DNA from: Nannochloropsis oceanica
Lineage: Eukaryota > Sar > Eustigmatophyceae > Eustigmatales > Monodopsidaceae
Direction: 5' to 3'
DNA length: 64,000 bases
Assembly: GCA_004519485.1 (NCBI GenBank)
Contig: CP038134.1
Location: 310,001-374,000, forward strand
Each line of letters begins with the position of its first letter. Within the stretch, counting starts at the first letter, position 1. The position numbers were made by a program, and so were the translations under genes. The notes under the pieces were generated by a model. The model was given only the letters and a program-made list of their open reading frames with translations. It was not told the origin of the DNA and made no database searches. Below, piece by piece: positions 4,267-62,500 of the stretch.

Positions 4267-5625
4267 TTATTGTTTTTCTCTGGGGCATTCCTCCTCGTTT
4301 TTCGGTCTCTTCTGCCTTGCCGCTGTCCCCTCTCCTCCTTCTTCTACTACACTTCTTTCTCTCTTCGACTGCCCCTCCTCCTCCTTCGCTCCAGCACCCC
4401 CATCACAATCCTCGTCCCTATGGTTCCACCCCCCCACCCCCTGCGCCTGGGCTTGCATGTGCCTCATCCATTCCTCCAAACTTACACTCCCCGCCTTGAA
4501 TTTCCTAATAAACAAACACCCTTCTTTCACCCCCTTTTCCAAGACTGCTGCTGGTAGTCCTTGGTATGTCTCAGGGCTCTTCGGCGAGTCTCCCCAACAG
4601 CAGTAGGTGAGTCGACGATTTATCACATTACTACAGCGACTGCTGCTGCTGCCGCTGCTGCTGCTTCGTGATTGCTGTTTTTGGTGGGTCGTGTTTGAGG
4701 ACGGCGGTACGTTACTTCCTCCACTTCTCATAATGCTGCTCATGCTGCTACCATTCGGTACCGCTCCTTCACATGGAGTGTTCCCCTCCACCGCTGCCAT
4801 TTGCGTCGTTGATCCCAACTCCCCCAGCACCGCCAGACAGGTCGGAAAGTACATCTCGTCAGACGCCGACACCCCCCTGAACAACGACCACACCTCTTGA
4901 CCAAACAACTTGGGCAAGGCCAGCAATGCAAGCGCGTGGGTTCTTGTCAATGCTACCCATTGGTCTGCTTTCCATACACTCTCAGAGGGGACGCCTACCG
5001 ATATTAGAGGTTGAAATTGAAGTTGATTCGAATAACCATTATTAGGCACATTTGTGAATTTCACCCAACTTTTAGATGCCGTGGCAAAAAGCGCGTCGGC
5101 CGCTCGGTCGAGGGGGAGGAGGGGGAGGCATGACTCAGAAGCAAAGAGGAAGCGCTGCATTTCTGCGGGGTCCTCAATGGCCACACGCAGGAGCTCCAGC
5201 TCGGCGCGCGTTATTTCAACCGAGCCCCACGCAGGGCGATAGGATGTCGGAAGCAGCCTTTTGCGTACCCAGGAAGAAGAGATTTTTTCTGGATGCTTAG
5301 CGTGAACCCACACTTTGACCTCTGTCCGCCCGTCTTGTCGCCGCAACCATTCACGCCATTGGTCCTCGAAGGGCAGGCCGTCAATAACCAGGAATAGCAG
5401 AGCCAGTGTGCGTTTTTCCGTGATCGGTGCAGCAGTATTGCCCAGGATTGGGAGCATGTTCGCCCGTACGGTGGCCCCAGCACGGAGGAGACGCTCCCCT
5501 ATTTCCTTTGTGGCCTGCTTGGCCGCCTGTGCTTTGCGTGCCTGGGCTGCTTCCTTGACTTCTTTCTTTTCGAGCGTCGCACGCAGTCCTTTAAAGCCCG
5601 CTAGCTGGTCCTTGAAACTCGCCAT
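4267..5625 (-). CDS. Core-2/I-branching (GT14, DUF266-type) glycosyltransferase-like protein
   Basis: This is a single-exon gene. I chose the ATG at 5625 (MASFKDQLAGFKGL), giving 452 residues; the frame is open further upstream but shows no domain there. Residues about 60-300 carry the DUF266/GT14 pattern. These include an LALLFLVIDGLP start, a VKVWVHAKHPEK strand, LLPTSYRPAWGSVEITRAE, the FLFASESCLPLLPLD segment typical of these enzymes, VWKADQWVALTR, and a final ASDEMYFPTCLAVLG. Family members usually transfer beta-1,6-GlcNAc or other sugars in the Golgi and begin with a signal anchor. Here no membrane helix is visible, and the N-terminus is a charged Lys/Ala/Glu helix. The C-terminus is serine-rich, then acidic. 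It could be cytosolic, or an upstream exon may be missing. Its donor and acceptor sugars are unknown. Confidence 0.75.
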   Translation of the reverse strand: MASFKDQLAGFKGLRATLEKKEVKEAAQARKAQAAKQATKEIGERLLRAGATVRANMLPILGNTAAPITEKRTLALLFLVIDGLPFEDQWREWLRRQDGRTEVKVWVHAKHPEKISSSWVRKRLLPTSYRPAWGSVEITRAELELLRVAIEDPAEMQRFLFASESCLPLLPLDRAADALFATASKSWVKFTNVPNNGYSNQLQFQPLISVGVPSESVWKADQWVALTRTHALALLALPKLFGQEVWSLFRGVSASDEMYFPTCLAVLGELGSTTQMAAVEGNTPCEGAVPNGSSMSSIMRSGGSNVPPSSNTTHQKQQSRSSSSGSSSSRCSNVINRRLTYCCWGDSPKSPETYQGLPAAVLEKGVKEGCLFIRKFKAGSVSLEEWMRHMQAQAQGVGGWNHRDEDCDGGAGAKEEEGQSKRERSVVEEGGEGTAARQKRPKNEEECPREKQ

Positions 5626-6135
5626 CGTGCGTGCTATGAATTGTGTGCATAGTGTAGTTGGTGGAGTGGGTTCAGAAACGTTCCGGTCTGCGTCGACCTC
5701 CTCACCCACCCTCCTTCCCAGCCTTTTTGCGGGCATAATTTGAGTACAAATGGTGCCACGACACCCTACACGGCAAGCTGAATACCACAATAGGTGGGTA
5801 CCACAATATGTGTCGGTTTTTGCCAACCGTGCTATTTATGGCCAAAATGAAACGACAAATGTGGCCTCTTTTCGTTCGTTCAACCTTAACCGACTCCCCC
5901 TTCCCCACATTCAGCATGACCTGCCCATACCGACGCGTTCCAAGACCACCAGCTCTGTTGCTTTTTTGGGTCGCATTGGCGGCCTTCCGGCAAACACTGG
6001 CAGCGATTTGGGGCCATGACAACATTGGTAAGCGCAGGCATGTATATATATATGACGTTTCCATGTTCTCCAGACCGGTCCACTTGGTACTAACTTTCCC
6101 AACCCTCTCGTCCCTACTTCTGTTTCCTAGAAGTC
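5626..6135. other. Divergent intergenic region
   Basis: This 510-bp gap lies between the glycosyltransferase start and the plus-strand gene at 6136. A possible 5' UTR intron (donor GGTAAGC at 6028, acceptor TTCCTAG at 6121-6130) would sit just before the second gene. No other gene is seen. Confidence 0.4.
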
Positions 6136-7617: not shown

Positions 7618-8048
7618 TTCCTACAATCCTAGAACTACTGCATGCAAACTTCACCCGCAAACAAATACTTCTTACCCAAGCACAACTCCGCCACGTCACT
7701 GGATCACATACGAGAGAAAGTCTTCCAGCAATAAAATGTTGCGTATGTTCCCCTTATTTGGTCCGAGTTGTGAAACGGCTTTGACAATTATTTTACAAGC
7801 AAAGTCCTCGGATGGCCCGTACAGGGTTGGGAGGAGGGGGGAGGAAAGTGGATGTCAGCGGGGAGGCAGCACATACAGCGTCCGCATCACCTGCCGCGGT
7901 TGACCACACTGGAGTTCGTAGGGACGAGCTTCTCCACGGACCATACTCTTGTACACCCGCAGGATATTGCGTGTCCCATTGCCGTCCCGAGATACGAACT
8001 GTTGACAGGTTTGACACCAACAAAGTCCTCGAATGGCCAGCACGTAAC
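7618..8048 (-). mobile_element. Fanzor/TnpB-like element remnant, copy A (3' end of nuclease gene plus shared noncoding end)
   Basis: Read on the minus strand, about 8037-7855 encodes RGLCWCQTCQQF, then VSRDGNGTRNILRV, then a basic tail VRGEARP. A C-x2-C followed by R-D-x-N-x-x-x-N-I is the end of the OrfB zinc ribbon plus RuvC-III motif of TnpB and its eukaryotic Fanzor relatives. The rest of the nuclease is absent, and upstream on the coding strand is a purine tract. Beyond the stop, 7618-7854 is a noncoding segment shared with copies B and C, and in part with D. A 17-bp direct repeat (7803-7819 and 8024-8040, 15/17 identical) brackets the coding module. The element end reads GGATTGTAGGAA on the coding strand. 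It shares an insert of about 45 bp with copy C. Confidence 0.65.
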
Positions 8049-9325
8049 CTCCGCCTCCTCCTGCTCTTGCTCTACCTCCTCCTACTATAGCTCCACCTCG
8101 TCCTCCTCGTCCTTTTTCTTCTTCTTCTTCTCCTCCTTCTTCTTCTTTTCCTCCTGCTATTGCTCCTGTTCCTACTCCTGCTCCTACACCTCCTCGTCCT
8201 CCTTCTCCTCGTCCTCCTCCTCCTTCTTCTTCTTCTCCTCCCTCTTCTTCTTCTCACGTTGCTCCTGCTCCTACTCTTGCTCCCACTCTTCGTCCTTCTC
8301 CTCGTCCTCGTCCACCTCCTCCTTCTTCTCCTGCTCCTTCTCCTCATCCACCTCCTTCTCCTCCTCCATCTCCTTTTGCGTCTGCTGGTACTGCTCGCAC
8401 TACTCCTCGAACCTTTTCAGCTTTCTTTCTTTCTCCCCCTTTCCCCCCTCCCCCTCCTTCTTGTTCTGCTGCTGCTGTTGCTGCTAAAAGTGCTCCTTTT
8501 ACTATTGCATCTGCCTCTTCTGCAGCCCTTGCCCCTTTCCTTTCTCCTCCACCTCCTCCTCCGCCCACTCCTCCTACCCCTCTTCCTCCTTCTCGAATCC
8601 CTCTAGCTAACTTCCTTTCTCCCCTTTCCCCTCCTCCTGTTGCTGCAGCTCGTACTCGTGCTACTACTGCTAGTGCTCGTGCTGCTGCTCCTCGTGCTAA
8701 AGCAGTGCAGGGTAGTCTCTTTCTCACCCTACTCCCCCTTGACAACCTCCAGTTTTACTTCTCTCTCCCCTTTCCCCCTCCTGCTGCCCGTGCTCGTGCT
8801 GCTGCTGCTACCAGTATTATCACTCGTGCTCGTGCTGCCTGTGCTGCTTCCGCTGCGTTCTTTTTCTTCTTCTTCCTCCTCCTCCTTTCCCTCCTGCTGC
8901 TACTAGTGTTGCTCCTCCGGCTGCTGCTTGTGCTGGTGCTGGTGCTGCTCTTACGAGTGTTGCTCCTACTCCTCCTCGAACTCCTGCAGGGTTTTCTCTT
9001 TCTCCCCCTCCTCCTCCTACTCCTCCTCTTCGACCCCCTCCAGCTTTCTTTCCCCCCCCCCCCCCCCGTACTGCAGCTGCTGCTGCTCGTACTGCTAGTG
9101 CTATGACTCCTGTAACTGCTGCATCTGCTGCTTCTGCTGCCCTTGTCCTTTTTCTTCCACCTTCCCTTCCTCGCCCTCCTTCCCCTCCGCCGTCTCCTCC
9201 TCCTCCTCCGCCTCCTCCTCCTCCGCCTCCTCCTCCTCCTTCCCCTACCCCTCCTCCTTCCCCTCCCCTCCTCCTTCCCCTCCTCCTTCCCCTCCACCCC
9301 CTCCCACCCTTCTCGCTCTGGGATT
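8049..9325. repeat. 1.3-kb polypyrimidine tract (CTC/TTC/CTG-rich; polypurine on the minus strand)
   Basis: The plus strand is almost entirely C and T, with interspersed CTG/GCT triplets. It also has a C run at about 9052-9066 and (CTC)n/(CCT)n blocks near 9180-9300. Every frame yields monotone Leu, Ser or Pro on one strand and Arg, Glu or Gly on the other, so the long open frames here are not evidence of genes. The tract abuts the Fanzor-like remnant exactly at its internal direct repeat, as the GGA tract does in copy B. Confidence 0.85.
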
Positions 9326-9529
9326 AAGCCGTTGCCCACAATCATGCTGCACATTTGTCATCAGGTTCTCCAGTACATGTACAGCCTTATAGTACTTCTC
9401 ACAAACCCGGAGCACCCTCTTGACCGGAATGCTCGTCTCGAACAACGAGCAAAAATGGCAATCGCCGAAAGACAGTCATACATATGGCCAAAGAAATAAA
9501 ACACCCCCAAAAACACACATAGGACAAAG

Positions 9530-25398: not shown

Positions 25399-25429
25399 CT
25401 TTGCCTCGTTTGGTTCTTTTTTTCTGCTG

Positions 25430-25601
25430 TTCCTACATCCCTCTAGAACTATCGCATGCAACCTGACCTCCTCTAGGACTTGCACACGAGGGCGAGCCTT
25501 CCAACAAAAAATTGTTGCCTATTCGCCCCTTATTTTTGTCCGAGTATTACTAGCGACTTTGACAGGTTTTTCATCAGGCAAAGTCCCCGGACGGCCCACA
25601 A
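25430..25601 (-). mobile_element. Fanzor/TnpB-like element remnant, copy D (noncoding end only)
   Basis: The segment from TTCCTACATCCC to GTCCCCGGACGGCCCAC matches, in the same order, the reverse complement of the last 160 bp of copy B (39245-39408). By eye the match is roughly 80 percent or better. It lacks the coding module and the 45-bp insert found in copies A and C. It is a solo terminal fragment. Confidence 0.6.
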
Positions 25602-36701: not shown

Positions 36702-38309
36702 GGTATCGGCTGAGCGTGGCGGTCGTAAATGGACTTGCTTTCAGACGGGGGACGTTAGCAGCACGAAAGCGAAGAAGACGTGTGCTGTATGCGTCTTTTC
36801 TCTTTTGTCTGATTCCAGCCCAAGTACCACGCCCGTCCTGAATGTGGAAGGGAGATAGGATATGCAGCGTCGTGGGGAATAATTGAGTGTGGGGAAGCCT
36901 TGATCAGATAGAAAGGCATGAGAGGGGTGAGAACGACCAAAGAATCATCATGGGTGTTTCTCATCCCCCCGTTGCATCGCCCCAAAGAATTCCACTTAAC
37001 GGCTCAAGCACTTGCATGTTCGCTGCCAGCACACAACACAAGCTCGCGTAGCGTATGCAAATATCTCATATACCCTTTCAGCAGCTCAATTTTACTCCTT
37101 TCGAATAGTATGTTGAAGCCAGTCTTTCGAAATGGTAACCTGATTATCACCGACAACGGGCCTGCCCGCATGTAGCTACCTACTCCACACAGCAAAAGGC
37201 AAGGTGAAGCAGGCAGTGTGTGTGTGCGGGGTGCAGGTGAGCGCGGGTCTGGGGTGAGCGAGGAACAGAAGAGGAGGGGTGGTGGAGGGGTGGAGGGAGA
37301 AATGGGTTCCACGCAAAACGTGCTCGAGATTTTGAGGAGCCTTGGACCATTACACGGGTTACGTTTCTTTTGCAGGTAAGCTAACCTTAGAGGGAATTGG
37401 CAAAGGAGGTAATGGTGCTGCAATGATCGTGGTAGTGGTTGGTCTGGGTGGTGGCGGTTGTGGCTGTTTGTTGGAGAATCAACCAAATCGTGCGGCAGAC
37501 GATCACGACCTCCCCACCCTTCGCTCATTCTACACACACTGTTGAGTAAAGACGACCAAGCCACAAGAAGTGTGAACCGAGTCCACACATGTGCTCACTG
37601 TCCATGATGTTCGTGTCGTCTCTTTTCTTTTTTTATTTAGAAGCTGCTGCTACTATTCTATAAATTGTGGGGATATCTCATTCCGCTTCTGGCGCATTTA
37701 TTCTTCGATTTGGCTTTAATTTCTAAATGTACGGTAATTATGATTCCTCTGTGCATCTCCTTGGGTTTGTCACATTCAATTTACCCATTCCCTCCATTCA
37801 CGACCTAATTTAAATCCCGTCCCGTCAATCTGCGGCTGGCTTTTTGCTGTGCGAAGTCATCCTCGTGCTCTACCTCCTTCACCCCCGTCTCCTCCTCCTC
37901 CGTACTATCCTCTTCCGCCTTGTCTTCCTCTCCATGGTCATGCACATTCCCTTTTCCTCGTCCACACCTTGCCCTCTTTCCCTCTCTCTGAACTAGGGTC
38001 CACATTCCTTTCCCCGTCCATATTCCTTCTCTTTCTTCCACTCCCTCCCACTGCCTTTTTTTTATTATTATCCCCTCTTTTTTTTACACACTCACTCTAT
38101 TTCACAACACATTCGTCCCCTTCTCTTCTCGTTCTCTCCCTTACAACATGACTTTGTTTTCCTTTCTCTACGCCCACACTGCCTCCCTCCCTTTTATCCC
38201 CCCCCCTCTCGCCCCTATCAAAGAGTCGAAATAGGCGATGAAGGAGGTAACTCTACCACACCCACATATGGATAATTTAACAAACTTCCTACCGGACAGC
38301 GGATATCCC
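36702..38309. other. 1.6-kb intergenic region, no confident gene
   Basis: This region lies upstream of RAD21. Minus-strand frames at 37004-37588 and 37805-38041 were examined and not accepted. A pyrimidine-rich stretch covers about 37860-38220. Confidence 0.4.
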
Positions 38310-38453
38310 GAGATTTGGCAGTGTGTACATCGAGATTTGGATCGAAGAAAATTGGGACGAAAAGTCAGTCTCGAACCGCGGCCCAAGGGAGTGTGAATCG
38401 AAATTTTGGACCCAAGAAAGTGATATTGGGACACAAGTCTCGAATCCCCGCCC
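38310..38453. repeat. Degenerate tandem repeat, period about 69 bp
   Basis: Two diverged units start at about 38332 and 38401. Each runs from a GATTTGG/ATTTTGG start through AAGAAA and TTGGGAC to CTCGAA and a final CGGCCC/CCGCCC. A further partial start (CGAGATTTGG) occurs at about 38309-38318. The array directly precedes the GGA tract of element copy B. Confidence 0.6.
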
Positions 38454-38459
38454 AAATGA

Positions 38460-39012: not shown

Positions 39013-39408
39013 CGGGCCATCCGAGGACTGTATTGGTGTGACACCTGTGAACAGTTCGTGTCTCGGGACGGCAATGGGGCACGTAATATCCTACGGGTGT
39101 ACAGGAGTATGGTCCGTGGGGAGGCTCGTCCCCATGATCTTCGGTTTGGTCAACCGCGGCAGGACATGCGGACACTCTATGTGTAGCCTTCCCGCTGACC
39201 TCCTCTTTTATCCTCCTCCCCCTTCTCCTCCTGGCCCTGTGTGGGCCGTCCGGGGACTTTGCCAGGTCAAAAAACCTATTAAAGTCGCTAGAAAAACTCG
39301 GACGAGAAATAAGGGATGACAACAATTTATTGTTGGAAGGCTCCCCCTCGTATGCAAGTCCTCGAAGACGTCAGGTTGCATGCGATAGTTCTAGAGAGAT
39401 GTAGGAAC
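39013..39408 (+). mobile_element. Fanzor/TnpB-like element remnant, copy B (best preserved module)
   Basis: The plus strand from 39016 encodes AIRGLYWCDTCEQFVSRDG, then NGARNILRVYRSMVRG and a basic tail ending at a stop at 39184-39186. C-x2-C plus R-D-G-N-x-A-R-N-I is the terminal zinc-ribbon/RuvC-III signature of TnpB/Fanzor nucleases. The noncoding end (39187-39408) matches the reverse complement of copies A, C and D. A direct repeat (39014-39029 and 39243-39258, 14/16 identical) brackets the module. A pyrimidine patch (about 39207-39235) just before the second repeat is complementary in character to the upstream purine tract. A 30-base A run (39438-39467) follows 29 bp beyond the end. Confidence 0.65.
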
Positions 39409-39437
39409 GCAACTCAAAAGAACTACCTACTCCTTAG

Positions 39438-51278: not shown

Positions 51279-51695
51279 TTCTACAACCCTAGAATTACCC
51301 CAGTGCAACCCATACCCGCAAACAAATGCCACTTATCAGAGCACAATTTCTCCACGTCATAGGATTACAAAAGAGGGAAATCCTTGCAACCAATCGCTTC
51401 GAACAATAATAAACTGTTGCATATTCTTCCCTTATTTTTGGCCGAGTTTTCTGGTGGCTTTAAAAGGTTTCTTACCAGCAAAGTCCCCGGATGGACCGAA
51501 AAGGGCTAGGAGGAGTGGGGGAAAAGAACAAGTCAAAGGAGAGACAACTTATACGGCGCCCGCATCACCTGCCGCGGTTTACCAAACCGGAGATAGTGGG
51601 GACGATCTTCTCCACGGACCATACTCCTGTACACCCGCAGGATGTTACGTGCCCCACCGCCATCTTGAGATAAGAAGTCTTTACAGGTTTCAAAC
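51279..51695 (-). mobile_element. Fanzor/TnpB-like element remnant, copy C (most diverged coding module)
   Basis: On the minus strand the module reads C-F-E-T-C-K-D-F-L-S-Q-D-G-G-G-A-R-N-I and then LRVYRSMVRGEDRP. This is the same frame as copies A and B, but the RDGN motif has drifted to QDGG. The noncoding end (51279-51530) matches copy A and includes the 45-bp segment absent from B and D. It is truncated just before the outer direct repeat and lacks a polypurine tract. The 3' boundary is TTCTACAACCCTAGAA, equivalent to the ends of the other copies. Confidence 0.6.
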
Positions 51696-53559: not shown

Positions 53560-56500
53560 CTAAGGCAATCCAGCCGCCGCCGTCTCGACGGACACGGGCA
53601 CTTCATCCTCCTTCGTCTCCTCCTCCGACTCCTCCCTCTCGCCCCTGACGTGGCCCTCCTCAATTTCAAACACTGCCGGTTCATGCTGCAGGTAAGTTTT
53701 GAGCGCCTCCACATTCCCGACCTTGGTGCGAGGCCTGCTGGCCCGGCGCTTTAGGAATTCCAGCGCGGTGACCTCTTGCTTGCACTTTTCATCGGACTTG
53801 GCACCGCCGCGACACAGGGCTGGAATGATATCGAAAAAGATGGACTGATAGACCAAGTTGATCTCGGGCTTCAACCGTTTGCTCATGTACGCCCGCATAT
53901 CCTCCACGGAGGCCGTGCGATCGACGGGCCGACCCTTAAATTCCTCTGCCCAGTCCGCCAGGGCAGAGATTGGCACGTAGTTAGACTCGGTGATTACGTA
54001 GTGACGGATGGCTGTGCCGCGCGCCGATGAAGGGGTGTGCTTCATGTGCCCTACCACAAATTTGGCCACGGCGTCCGCAGACATGAGGAAAAGCTTGTAT
54101 TCCCCCAGCTCCTTAGCTGGCAGGAGGCCGGAGTCGTGGATGCACTGCATGAGGCGGACGAGGATTAAATCCTTGGCGTATCCTGTCCCGAAGCGGCCCT
54201 TGCTGTTGGGTGTGATGTAGGGGAGGCGGTAGATGACACAGCGTAGGTTGTAGTGCCGGGCAGCGAACTGCAGTATGTCTTCGGCCTTGCGCTTCACGTC
54301 AAAATACGGCACGGTCTTGAGCAACTCCCGGTCCTCGGGATCGGCGTAGTCCATCGCCGTCAAGGAGGAAGAGGAAAGATAATGGATGGAGGCCCCGTTC
54401 TTTCGCGCCATGGCAATCACGTTCATCAGCCCCGAAATATTAACCGGCACCAAATCAGCGTCCATGGCCCACTTCAGGCTCCCGCCCGTGTGCACAATTG
54501 TGTCCACCTGTGCCACAAGATCCTCATATACCGGGCCTGTCATTCCAAAATCCTTCTGGGCCACATCGCCGGGCACGGGCTTGATGGACTTGGCAAAGGA
54601 GTCCTTCCAGAGGGATAGATCGCGCATACTTTTCTCAATCATCATCAGCCCACCTTCAGTCGTCTTCCAAGGGCCCACGCAAAACAGCACCGTGGCGCCG
54701 CCCTTGATCAAATAACGGACCATGTGCGCACCGTTCAGGAACTCTGCACCAAAAAGTAACACCTTGCTGCCCTTGAGGTTGCTGCTGGTAGACAGACGTT
54801 TAAGCTTGGGTTGCGATACAATTCGGCCACTCTCCGTGCAGGTCTCGAAGCGGGAGGAAATCATGCTGTTCATCTCCGCCTTGCTGTGAAGCACCTTGAC
54901 TTCTTCCACTTGATCTGCCCCTGCCCCATCTCCTTTGCCAGCCCCGCTGCTGCGCGCCTGGAGCTTGAAGATCACTTTGGCCACGTCCTCCAAAGTCATG
55001 CTCGGCGACATCTTGACGGACTCCATCTCCACATTGAAGTGCTTCTTCATCCTACCCCCCAACTCCACAAAACCCAGTGAGTCTAGCCCCAAGGCTGTCA
55101 ACTGCGCCGTCACCAAAACAGTGGTCACGCCCGTGATGGAACGAATTTCATCTGCCAAAAATGCCGAGATCTCCTTGGCACTCATGAAGCTACTGTTGGC
55201 TGCCACCGCCCCCAAAGAAATCACTTCGTTTAACTGGTGCGACCAGGCCGCCTGCGAAGGGAACATGTCCCGGGTCTGCTCCTTGAAAAACATGGTCACC
55301 ACCGGGTTCAATCCCACCACCAAGCCCGTCTCCAGCATCTCCATCGCCCGCGTCGAGCTCATAAACTCCATTCCCACCTTCAGTTGGAACTTACGCGCAG
55401 ACAAATTATTCTTCAGGATGCCGACATCTGAAAGAGAGGCCATGTTGAATGTCGTGCCCGGCAACCCCTGCTGGCGACGATAGCGCATCAGCGCATCCAA
55501 ATAAGCATTGGCGGAGGAGTAGGATGCCATACCAGGGCCACCAATCAAGGCCGCAATCGACGAAACGCACACAAAGTAATCAAGCCCCATATCCAAGGTG
55601 TTCTCGTGCAAAAACCAGGCCCCACGCGCCTTACAGTCTGCCACCTCCATGTAGTTCTCCGGCTTCATTTCGGGCAGCAACACGTCTACGCTCACACCCG
55701 CCACGTGCCACACGGATTTGACCGGAGGAGACATGGTCTTTGCGTGGGCGCACAGTTTCTTGACGTCCGCTTCATTGCCTGTGTCTATGGTCAAGACCTC
55801 AAACGTCACGCCCGTATGCGCCGTAAGATCCGAAAACGCCGCCTTCACCTTGTCCGTATTGGCCGAGCGGGTAGTGATGAGGAAGTGCTTCGCCCCTTGA
55901 TCGAAAGCATACCGCACCATGGCCGATCCAAAGCCACCAGCCCCGCCCGTGATGAGATAGGTAGCGTTCTCGTGGAATACCGTTTGTGGCTTCTCCACCA
56001 CCACCGACAAAGGCTCATATCGCGCCGCCGGCCCCTCCCCCACCTTGGCGTAATTAGTCAGGACGATCTTGCCGACATGCTTTCCCGTCTTCATCAGGTC
56101 CAAGGCCTCCTTCATCGAATTCATGGGGAATACTTGCGTGGGAATCAAATCGTAATTGCCTGCCTCGAAGTTTTTCCCAACCTCCATGGCAACTTCCGTC
56201 GCCAGAGTCGGGTTGTCGAGCACCATCCGGTCCATGTCTATGGCAAAGAAGGAGATGTTCTTCCGGAACGCCAGCAAGTCCAACCCGTTGTTGTCGAAAA
56301 TGTCCATCTTTCCGATCTCTAGAAAGCGACCCGAGGAGCGCAAGGCCTGAATTCCTAGCCGTTGATGCTTGCCCGCCAAGGAATTGAGGATCACGTCCAC
56401 CCCCTTTCCGTCCGTGTCGCGCATCAGGTCATCGAACCAATCGGTGCTACGAGAGTTGTAAACATGCGTCACACCCATGTCCCGCACCAGCTGCCTCTTT

Positions 56501-59500
56501 TCCTCTGAGCCAGCTGTGGCAAAGATCACAGCACCAATGTGCTTGGCGATGGAGATGGCCGCATGCCCGATCCCGCCGGCTGCCGAGTGAATGAGGACCG
56601 TCTCTCCCTTGCGGATGCGGGCCAGGTTGATCAAAGCATGGTGGGAGGTATTGAATACCGACTGGATCGACGCCGCGTCCTCAAAGCTCATCTTCAGTCC
56701 TCCAAACGGTACAACTCTATACGCAGGCGCATTGAGGCGGTTGGTCAAGCAGCGGGGCTCGTTCAGCAGCACTTTGTCCCCCACCTTAAAATTCTTTACG
56801 TCCGCCCCTACAGCTGTCACCACCCCAGAAGCCTCCAACCCCAAATTCTTCCCATAGAAGGACGCCTCATAGGACTTCTCGGGCAGCAAGGACAAAGCAA
56901 TCATAACGTCACGGAAATTGAGAGCCGCCGCATAGACATCTACCGTCACTTCGTCCGCCTTGGGCGCCGGCAGCTCCTGCAGGCAGAACTTGGCCCCAAT
57001 CTTGCCCGGTGTGTTCTGACGCTCCACGTCTGCAAAAAAGGAGACGTTCCTGGCGTTGGTCCGCACCGACTCGGAGCGAGCCGCCACCTTGTCCACGGCA
57101 TTGAAGCGCGGCACTAAAATCTGTCCTGCCTCCGACACGGCGTAGGATGTCTCGTGCGTATTGGCCACCACCAGCTGTGCCAAAGCCCCCAGGCCCGTCC
57201 TCATCGCCGCCAGATCCACGTGTTTGGTGGCAACACCATTCAACTCACTCTTCAAGACCGTGGAAAAGCCTTGCACCACACCATGGGCAGGCTTGATCTC
57301 CCCTACGTACACCCCGTTCGTCACCAACCACAGGCTCTTGGGTTTGTCGGCGCATTTGAGCAAGGCCTGCGACAGCTTCAGCAACCGACTGAATACCATT
57401 TCCCCAATTTGCGACTCGTCATTCAATCCCGCCAAAAACACCACCCCCTTTAGAGGCACCACCACCCCATCTTCTGCGGCCGTGCTACTGTCCGTCGTGA
57501 TCTCCGAGAAATCCGAATCCTCGCACGAGGAGTCTGAGCCAATCAAGCCTGTGATGGCACCCTCATAATCCTCCACTGTCGAATCGTCCCGCAGCGAGCC
57601 TCCCTCCCCCACAACAATCACTTCCGCTTCACACGCGGAGTTCAAGGCCATGATTTGCCGACGCAAATCCGTTGCCGCCTGCATGCTGTCCGTTACCAGC
57701 AAGTAGCGGCCCGGCTGTGTTACCAAAAGGCCCTTCATGGCACCTGCCACCACTGAATCTTGCGCCTGTGCCGTGGCCCGACCCGTGAGTGTCAGAGTGC
57801 TGGTCCACTCCTCCCGTGCTGCCTTGCACTTTATGTCCGCGGCAGTCGCCAAAGGCAGCGCTGCCGCCGACACCTGCGAGGCTAAAGTCACCCAGAGGGG
57901 CAAGTCATTAAGGCCTCTTACGAAAACCAGCGCACTGGGCGCTAGGAAGGGTGCAAGGAAAGCGACGGCGTTAGAGGAGACATTGGCGCCCTCACCTTCA
58001 ACGAAAGGCGCAGAGCCCGTGCGGACCCAATCATCTAGCACCACGGCATCAAAGGCCAGGTCCTTTAACTCCTTCTCGGCCTTGTTGCTCATCAGGACCC
58101 GGCGAAGACGGACGTTGGTGGCGCGCTTGGTTACCTTGTTGGCAAGGGAGAGGAGAAGGCCCGAGTTAAAGGAGCCAACGAAGAACTCCACCGTCACAGT
58201 AGCCGGCAGCTCAAGCAAGGACAATGCCTCAAAAACAGTGAAGACCCGCTCCTCCGCCAACTCTAGCACGCGGAAGACGTAGTTGTCTCCGAATGCCTGT
58301 TGGTTGGCCAAAATGGTCTGCTGCAGCGTGGCAGCGACGCGGGAGGCCTCGTACACTTGGAAAGTAGATATAGCAACCAAATCCTCCACGTCCTCACCCG
58401 TCAGCAGTACATGCTTCTCCTCCTTCCCCTTCGTAGCAGCACCACCAGCAGCAGCATCAGCTTTAGGCTTGATCTTATCCACAAGGGCCTTGACCAAGCC
58501 GGCGCCCACCTCGTCCAAGCCACCCACCTTGGGGAAGGCAGGCATGGCCGAAGTGGAAGCACACTCGCGGACATCCACTCGATCAATAACCTCCCGGATC
58601 TGCTCGGCGAGCGACCGCTGCACGGGCCCACGAGGCTTGCGACCAGTTGTAGGAGCGATAGCGGGAGCAGCGGCCGGCTCGGCCTCCAAGGCACCCGAGG
58701 CCTTGAGCTCCTGTACGAGGTATGACGTCAGGTCCTCGTTCTTCTCTGCAGACCACACCTCAACGACAGCGGCGGGGGCGACCTCGATGGCCAGGGGACC
58801 CTTGGAAAGGAGGGCATCGTAAGGCTGCCAGAGGAGATTGCAAAGCTTGTAGTTATCGATGATGGAGCCAATAATGGAGAAAAAGCCTTGGATGTAGATA
58901 ATGAGCTGGCCCGTGCTATCGTATACAGCAAAATCTCCCACCTTCTGCTTCCGGCCAATGACCATGCGGCTCTTGTCCGGTATGAGGTACACATAAAGCT
59001 CGTCAGTGGTCGGCTGCCGAATGAAGTGCCCAGCGTCAAAGCCACCTGCGTAGTAGACGGCCGAGTCGTCCGCGAGCATAAGCAAGGGGTGAATGACCGA
59101 GTCGAGAAACTCGACGCCAAAGACGCCACCTTTCTTGGTCCATTTCTTGTTGTCATACTTGATCTTGGAGATAATGGTCTTGCTGCCCGGCTCCAGGTAC
59201 GCAGACTGGATGAGCTGGAAACCGCCCAACCACTCCATCACGCCCTCCACACAGTAGTGCCCGTAGAAGGCCTCCTTCGACGCGTGCTTGCAGTCTGTGT
59301 GCTTGGCAATCAAGTCCTTAAGCCCTGCTTTCCCTAAATCATTCAGTGCCAACCCGCCCATAATCCCATACGCCTCGGGTTTAAAGCCCTTGGAAAGCGA
59401 GCCGTCCTTTTCCAACAGCTTGCTCTTGATGGCTAACCCCGTGCAGTGCGTGACGTACACGGGCTCTTCGTCAGCCTTGTCGCGGATTGGGGCTGACCGG

Positions 59501-62500
59501 ACCTCGAAGGAGCGAATATCGTCCTTGATCTCTTTGAAAGTCAGCCCCAGCATGGAGGGTACCTCGCCCTTGCTCGCCACAGGGATGCGGCACATGCTCT
59601 TGAACTCCACATTAGCCAACGTCACCGGCGTGGTGTGGGAAGCCTCCAACGCCATTTCCACAAAAAACATGCCAGGCAAAATCGTCTTCCCCCCCATGCG
59701 ATGGTCAAGCATGCTCTTGTTTGTCCTATCAGAAACCTCCACCAAGAAGGCACCCTCAAAGAAGCGTTGCCGGCCCGCCACCGGTCCATCGTGATATTGC
59801 CCAAAGCGCATGTCAAATCGCATGCTTGGTAAGTTTTCGTACAGGGGCTTCTTGATAAAAGGATGCTTGGGCATGTCTTCTTCAAAGGCATATCCCAACG
59901 CCGTATACCACGGCTTCAGATCCAATTCCGCCCCACGCTCAAACAAATTGCCAAGCGCTTCCAAGAAGCGGAAATTGCAAGAGGCACCCTTCTTGAGCGT
60001 GGGAAGGACCGTTGCGGCCTTACCAGTAGCACCCAGCACCTGCTTGATGGGCGATACGAGGGTCTGGTGTGGGCCAATCTCCAGCACCACGTCTGGCACC
60101 GTGTCCCCCGCAAAGGCCGTCTCCAAGGCCTTCTGGAAGAGAACCGGGTACCGCACGTTCTTGCACCAGTAATCGGCATCCACCTCCGTCTCCACTTTAC
60201 CCGTCACCGTCGAGATATAAGGCAAGCTCCACCCCGTTTCTCCACGCTGGTCCAAGAAGGAAAGTCGCTTCTTGATCGATTCAAGGACAGGAATCATGCG
60301 AGAAGAGTGGAAGGCAATGTTGCCCTGCACAAAAGTCATCGCCGTGCCCTCAGGAAACAGGCCCTTGATCTCGTTCAGCCGCGCCTCGCTTGACGCCAGT
60401 ACCACCGACTCGGGTGAGTTGACACAGGCCACCTCAATGTCCTCTTGTCCCCGAATGCACTCCACCACGCGCTCATGCGACAAGCCCACCACCAACAAGC
60501 GGCCACAACCCGCCATCTTCTGCTGCTCTTGCGAACGATGGTACACGACCTTGACTGCCTCTTCCAATGTGAGAAGGCCTGCAGCGTACGCCGCCGCCAC
60601 CTCTCCCGCCGAATGGCCCGTCACCACATCAGGAAAGACACGGAAAAACTTGAGAAGCTCAAACAACCCCACCTGCACCAAGAATGAGATCGGCTGTGCA
60701 TAAATCGTGTCCCGCATCTCATCCGTCGATAAGGACTCGTTCTTCTCCAAAATAGACCAGCCCGACAAGTCCTTGAAAATCTTGTCCGCTGCCTTGACTG
60801 CCTCTTGATAAACAGGGAAAGCCATCAATGACTTGCCCACGCCCGGCCACTGTGACCCCTGGCCCGTGAACACATATGCCACTTGCATCTTTCGCCCCTC
60901 CCCCGAAGGCTGGACGTTACCCGTGGCGGCAAATGCAGCCAGGGCTTGCTGCATTTCCTCCACGGAGGAGGCAATGAAGGCCTTGCGGAACTTGAAGCGG
61001 GAGCGATTCACCCACATAGTTCCACACAAATCTTTGAGATCTAGGGCATCCTTCTTCTCGTCCAGATAGGCCGCCATTCGCTCGGCAAAAAGCTTCAGGT
61101 GCGCCATGCTCACGGCAGACAAGGGCAAAAGGTAGCTGGTTGGTTCATCGTTCACACTAGCGGCAATTACGGGGGGCATCGCAGTAGCCGCCTTGGCAAG
61201 CTGGAGGTGGGCAGGGACACGGTATTCCTCGAGCACGACGTGGCCGTAAGACCCACCAATGCCAAAAGAAGAGAGGCCGACCACCACAGGCTCGCCATTC
61301 TCAGGGAAGGGCTCCACTTCCTGTTGCACGCGCATGTTGTTGGCGGCCCAGTCATAGTCCGTGCGGGGCGTCGTCACACCGGCTGTGGGCAAGAACACCC
61401 GGTGCTTCATCATCTGCACGATCTTGATGACGGAGAAAATTCCGGCCGCCACCTCGGCGTGGCCAATATTGGACTTGACGGAGGCAATTCGAATGGGGTT
61501 CGTCTCCAGGTCATGCGACTCCCCAAAGACAGAGCCAACCGCGTCAACCTCGATCACGTCACCGACGGCCGTGCCCGTGGCGTGGCACTGCATGGGTGGG
61601 GAGTAAGGGGGGTTCGAGAGGGGTATGAGTGACTACGCATAACAAAAATGTATTCATACATTTTCACGCGCACCAACCCAAGCAAACATTTAAAACTGGA
61701 CCGAAAGGCAAGTACAAAGACAAATACGCCCGTATACACACAAGATCTATATATCAAATGCCATTCTTTCCCTCTTCCCACCCCCGCCTGTCTCTCCCCC
61801 TTGATCCCATCCATACCTCCATGTAATTCAATCGCTTGAACGGAATCCCCGCCGACGAAAATGCACGCATGTACATCTGACGCATCCCGTTCGGGCAGGG
61901 CTGCTCATATACGCGTCCAGCTCCGTCCATGGAACTATCAGCCGCACCAGCACTGGCAGCAACTGCACGGGAGAGCTTGACCAAAATCCGGTTTCCCAGC
62001 TGCTCCGCATCAGCCATGCGACGCAACACAATGCATCCCATGCCTTCCGCGCGGAAGAAGCCTTTGGGTCCGTCCTCATCGAAGGGATGGCAAGCAGGGC
62101 CTTGCACGAGCACACCGCAGGCTTGGAGGGAGAGATGAAAGTCTTTTTCCGACAGATAGTTAATGCCGACGACGATGGCCGTGTCGCAGTCACCAACGGA
62201 AAGCGCATTGGCAGCCAGGGCAGTGGCAACCAAAGAGGAAGAGCATGCCGTTTCCAAGGTGACACTGGGGCCATGTGTACCGAGGAAATATGACACTACA
62301 GGTAAAGATGGAGGTAGGAGGGGAGGGACGTGGGTCATTGGAATTTTGTATTAGTATTTTGCCAAGTAGACATGGAAAAAAAGGATAATGAATGAAGAGA
62401 AATGCCGCAATTGCGGTGGCGTTTGAAAAAGTGGATAAAAATTAAAGCAAGGAAGGGAGAGAGGGAGGGAGGAAGGGAGGGAGGGAGGGAGGGAGGGAGG

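Follow-up and report, generated by a model that had tools for sequence, protein, structure and literature searches.

The available part of Bao & Jurka (2013, PMC3627910) tabulates a single Fanzor1 from Nannochloropsis oceanica (code NOc) and numbers as E536 the glutamate that precedes a [TS][TS] pair in the nuclease, the residue that is E541 in SpuFz1. In Spizellomyces punctatus, ghost Spu-1 elements carry guide-RNA scaffolds that are active in human cells, according to the accessible text of Saito (2023, PMC10432273). Here we analysed a 64,000-nucleotide stretch of N. oceanica DNA (C8:310001-374000, hereafter the window; the genome has 29,264,788 bases in 32 contigs) in which a short coding module recurs. 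The module is very probably the C-terminus of a Fanzor1-type nuclease (the second zinc-ribbon half and RuvC-III) carried on a mobile element, of which the window copies would be 5'-truncated or internally deleted derivatives. Long copies of the parent gene are few in this genome and damaged; short ones that keep the 3' end number more than 100. The features of the window, with the copy around 39013-39408 taken as the main copy, are:

38033-38458, + strand: 5' leader (type B) of the main copy, one of 16 matches; start approximate, placed by eye against L024
38461-39005, + strand: GGA-type microsatellite tract of the main copy; it splits the zinc-ribbon halves in longer copies (reading frame of L049)
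39013-39186, + strand: C-terminal 57 codons of Fanzor1 and the stop, with the second C-x2-C, the RuvC-III R-D and the basic tail
39187-39425, + strand: 3' non-coding region of the main copy, with a TAGTTC...GAACTA hairpin at its end; candidate guide-RNA scaffold
7618-7854, - strand: 3' non-coding region of a diverged copy
7855-8040, - strand: Fanzor1 C-terminal module of the diverged 7618 copy, 69% identity to P0013 over 54 residues
8050-9298, - strand: GA-rich tract (CT-rich on the + strand) of the 7618 copy; bounds approximate
9299-9442, - strand: Fanzor-type Glu region and first zinc-ribbon half (Q-H-D-C) of the 7618 copy; 67% identity, E 1.5e-13
25411-25600, - strand: copy with a 3' end only, its 5' truncation falling within the 3' non-coding region
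51279-51550, - strand: 3' non-coding region of a 5'-truncated, diverged copy
51551-51694, - strand: Fanzor1 C-terminal fragment without the first Cys or the R of R-D

Copies with RuvC motifs upstream of the module, as the sequence-only reading had anticipated, do occur. At C4:1090021-1091388(-) (L049, the same as L066) a single open frame of 456 residues contains RuvC-I, a Glu-x2-TT motif, both zinc-ribbon halves and the module; going upstream from the module there is a Gly-rich tract, then the zinc-ribbon half TTKVHLDC, the Glu motif and RuvC-I. The RuvC part is found at other loci too. P0003 (the first 577 residues of a frame on C9) has 20 relatives with E<=0.01, of which the top match shows 43% identity over 91%. 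In the eight relatives read, which are 537-710 residues long, the alignment places the module at the C-terminus, and about 25 residues separate the two zinc-ribbon halves in the relatives. A PDB search with a profile of these relatives gave SpuFz1 as the top match, and the predicted structure of P0004 resembles SpuFz, PpFz and GtFz far more than the other entries listed, which supports a Fanzor1 fold. The 456-residue frame itself was tried as a PDB query and set aside as uninformative, the matches being dominated by the Gly tract; without the tract it had no match in that search.

The RuvC and Glu motifs and their spacings agree with this assignment. The RuvC-I Asp stands in a D-P-G context (AIDPGRVNLV in L066, L067, L068, L069, L070 and L072) at column D416 of alignment A2, and the Glu before [TS][TS] lies in PEHLTTK in the genome copies and VNEYLTTK in the relatives (E573, with T576-T577, in the alignment). 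In P0004, D416 to T576 and C611 to R617 fit D-X(125,275)-[TS][TS] and last zinc ligand-X(5,50)-RD, respectively. The zinc ribbon is less clear-cut: all four ligand positions are present, but the first is His in most copies here and in most relatives (Gln in L070; Cys in P0021-P0023). The proposed profile test on the fragment alone was weak: PF07282 scored the 39013 module at 13.6 bits (E 0.079; cut-off 26.3), because only half of the domain is present, and did not match the fragments of the 7618 and 51279 copies. Among the relatives, P0004, P0018 and P0021 lay above the cut-off, P0005, P0006, P0013, P0022 and P0023 below it, and P0003 had no match. The TnpB/Fanzor-like reading is nonetheless supported by the C4 frame motifs, the C-termini of the relatives, the SpuFz1 profile match and the P0004 model; because of these, the long copies are Fanzor1 and the window copies are pieces of Fanzor1, with homology and parents in the same genome both demonstrated.

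Within the window, 39013-39186(+) encodes RAIRGLYWCDTCEQFVSRDGNGARNILRVYRSMVRGEARPHDLRFGQPRQDMRTLYV-stop, without an internal stop and with a C-x5-RD spacing. The sequence-only reading had placed the same module at three loci. This is right for 39013-39186 and for 7855-8040(-), which carries C-x2-C, RDGNGTRNILRV and VRGEARP, but not for 51551-51694(-), where the matched part is open, Phe replaces the first Cys and Q-D-G-G stands instead of R-D-G-N. There is also a fourth copy, 3'-only, at 25411-25600(-), and the main copy ends at 39425 rather than at 39408. The first C-x2-C, thought to be missing, has its counterpart in the 7618 copy, where 9299-9442(-) corresponds to residues 296-343 of the C4 frame; the form in this clade is H-x2-C. 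Over 39013-39408 the main copy and the long C4 copy share 97% identity. The main copy is an internal deletion, in which positions 1358-1731 of the C9 copy are fused to 4968-5936. A 16-base direct repeat, GGGCC(A/G)TCCG(A/G)GGACT, occurs in its coding module (39014-39029) and in its 3' non-coding region (39243-39258), and the 25411-25600 copy starts close to the equivalent of the second unit.

The module recurs across the genome. A DNA search with the 396-base query 39013-39408 returned 42 pieces including the query itself, at 88-97% identity (the best 40 of 192 candidates were scored), and a protein search with the module returned 110 pieces (E up to 10). We also counted short tags with up to 3 mismatches, using the reversed pattern as a control. 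The 3' tag was found at 156 places (89 exact), a tag in the middle of the 3' region at 111 and the RD-motif coding-sequence (CDS) tag, CGGGACGGCAATGGGGCACGTAA, at 78, with 0 for every reversed control. Because CGGGACGGCAATGGGGCACGTAA has 78 places against 0 when read backwards, the recurrence is not chance; the totals alone are a rough guide, since the tags differ in conservation. The 89 exact 3' tags nest: 41 are accompanied by both the mid and CDS tags, 18 by the mid tag only, 0 by the CDS tag only and 30 by neither, where 100 of the 111 mid-tag places were used and up to 11 copies may thus be misplaced. In 36 of the 41 copies with all three tags the distance from CDS tag to 3' tag is 309-315 bases, bearing out the earlier claim that the module lies at a constant distance from the element end. 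The copies show nested 5' truncation and a common 3' terminus.

Read from the 5' side, the long copies have mosaic leaders, followed by the N-terminal and RuvC part and by a GGA-type tract with a conserved stretch inside it; the module, the 3' non-coding region and the terminal hairpin come last. The first 344 residues of the C4 frame match 44 pieces of the genome (E up to 1), including frames of 707, 887 and 657 residues, and 11 sites match over at least 100 residues. The tract, which contains 100 N in L069, is an unusual insertion inside the zinc ribbon; it may be removed by splicing, be tolerated by the protein or inactivate it. Read as an intron in five copies, it has a GT at the same place in three and elsewhere in L075, with none in approximately 150 bases of L068. 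On the 5' side, the A-type 5' end was considered as a terminus and rejected; it is only a junction, and the upstream sequences differ among the 16 copies fetched (by eye, 8 share one sequence, 6 share another, one has that of L027 and one stands alone). On the 5' side of the long copy at L084 (C11:734500-740500), positions 123-1897 form a near-perfect palindrome of 1.78 kb (98.8%).

At the 3' end, the main copy (39386-39425) and most close copies have the TAGTTC...GAACTA hairpin with a hypervariable loop; the stretch between GTAGGA and the pre-terminal A-run, read in 28 of 30 oriented copies, takes 12 forms. In a further set of 25 3' ends, GAACTA follows within 57 bases of TAGTTC in 18 (chance approximately 0.014 each; the loops span 6 to 42 bases) but not in the other 7. 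The diverged window copies (7618 and 51279) have no clear GAACTA end and the 25411-25600 copy has GAACCA. The 5' junctions examined, which need not be the true 5' ends, do not match the 3' hairpin, no inverted repeat joining both ends was found, and at gathering scores Rfam had no match in the window. In 15 of 33 junctions (L006-L035, L042, L063 and L064), simple repeats whose units differ begin 6-23 bases beyond the element end, and at 42 in one more. These 15 within 40 bases stand against 0.064 in the control (p 4e-10), and changing the width to 25 or 60 gives 12 or 16; the test was conceived after the junctions had been inspected. A follow-up with the same expression, planned on 40 tags, obtained 25: the first 20 gave 3 positives among 11 with the terminus (p 0.029), and all 25 gave 3 of 15 (p 0.067) after removal of 10 that lacked the terminus expression. 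The enrichment was not clearly replicated. At L011 (C11:850k), two elements lie tail to tail with 12 bases between their 3' ends.

Several points weigh against reading the elements as carriers of a Fanzor1 nuclease and guide scaffold. The N-terminus is absent from the C4 copy; in L067, L068 and L071 the RuvC-encoding frame stops short of the module; and none of the long copies read, a set that excludes L070, is an intact gene by plain translation. The structure model is of a relative rather than of the genome's own protein, the first zinc ligand is His and not Cys, and covariation in the 3' region is small (2 of 20 pairs, 8 sequences). A chance zinc-ribbon motif would account for the weak Pfam score of the fragment, but its probability is negligible; the full-length relatives refute it, and the C4 frame, the RuvC-bearing loci, the alignment, the profile-to-PDB match and the P0004 model oppose it. 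The module might alternatively be retained since the short copies still make a functional small zinc-ribbon peptide, and in the alignment (41 copies, two partial duplicates having been removed) its frame is stop-free in 36, gaps ignored. Over the 31 close copies used for selection counts, synonymous changes exceeded expectation (ratio 0.25; 0.48 by distinct events), but single-copy changes were near neutral (19 of 29, expected 0.74, p 0.19). Moreover, most of the open frames read run upstream from the module into the tract in varying frames, and for 48 of the 89 exact 3' tags the CDS tag is missing from its expected position, leaving the peptide very improbable. The pattern of changes fits, in a small sample, copies that derive from sources under constraint and degenerate once inserted.

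How the Fanzor1 derivatives moved can be argued in more than one way. Retroposition, in which element RNA is reverse-transcribed from the 3' end to give a fixed 3' and a variable 5' truncation as in LINE/SINE elements, would explain the nested truncation and the A-runs near some 3' ends. We consider it unlikely: an exon-by-exon search of the genome, which is no proof of absence, gave two weak RVT_1 matches and none above the Pfam cut-off; target-site duplications were not clear by eye in the handful of copies with both ends; the repeats next to the ends have different units and do not form one tail; and a 5' leader lies within 7 kb upstream in 17 of 40 3' copies (from the 42 DNA-search pieces), some with an internal deletion. 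L029 has CTAGTAGGC on both sides, a single case that we do not claim as a target-site duplication. Helitron_like_N had no match in the genome, but it had none in the control genomes either, so that this negative carries no weight. In the mechanism that we propose, the nuclease would be produced, now or until recently, by the longer copies; the conserved 3' non-coding end would hold a guide-RNA scaffold, with the bases just beyond the terminus as guide; and the short copies, which would themselves be unable to cut DNA, would spread through machinery supplied from elsewhere. A bolder version, which we regard as a long shot, is that the >100 3'-end copies form a dispersed guide-RNA repertoire (scaffold plus differing flank) for the few Fanzor copies. 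The nuclease itself would then have shaped the ends, the simple repeats of the first junction set marking RNA-guided cuts and slippery repair, fold-back repair yielding the hairpins with variable loops, and spread proceeding by RNA-guided breakage and one-sided copying without reverse transcriptase.

Five other PF07282 matches lie above the cut-off (L001-L005, at C1:1034208, C8:749907, C4:174104, C8:721866 and C11:980306). Three have a stop inside, and L004 has a RuvC-I-like stretch, ALDPGVCTFIACY, upstream; they form a second, different TnpB/Fanzor-like family. Elsewhere in the window, 53560-61632(-) is an open frame of 2690 residues that, judged by reading alone, resembles a type I polyketide or fatty-acid synthase.

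For the role of Fanzor in element and host, the N. oceanica genome offers a test bed: 29 Mb, a handful of long Fanzor copies, >150 matching 3' ends that adjoin different DNA, and scant trace of reverse transcriptase. The accessible literature on Fanzor in Nannochloropsis, or on non-autonomous or truncated Fanzor, contains no account that we found of the tract, short copies or hairpin ends in N. oceanica, which may be in print elsewhere. The NOc Fanzor1, from a stramenopile alga, shares the D-X-[TS][TS]-zinc-RD motif order as far as the available text of PMC3627910 describes it; that text does not mention element ends, tract or short copies. With SpuFz1 (available part of PMC10432273) the likeness is in the nuclease fold, as predicted by the P0004 model. 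From the same text, ghost Spu-1 elements resemble these copies in having many short loci that lack the nuclease body and share the region from stop codon to 3' end; here 39013-39408 is 97% identical to the C4 copy and 25411-25600 is 3'-only. Ghost Spu-1 elements have inverted repeats at both ends, whereas in the N. oceanica copies we found only the 3' hairpin and the 5' sides are truncated or mosaic; many of the short copies here, unlike ghost Spu-1, retain C-terminal codons. MCi-2 of Mucor circinelloides, in the accessible part of PMC3627910, similarly joins one constant, Fanzor-bearing 3' region to several 5' regions, but that 3' region is 6 kb long and 99% identical in 11 copies, whereas N. 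oceanica has >100 short 3' ends.
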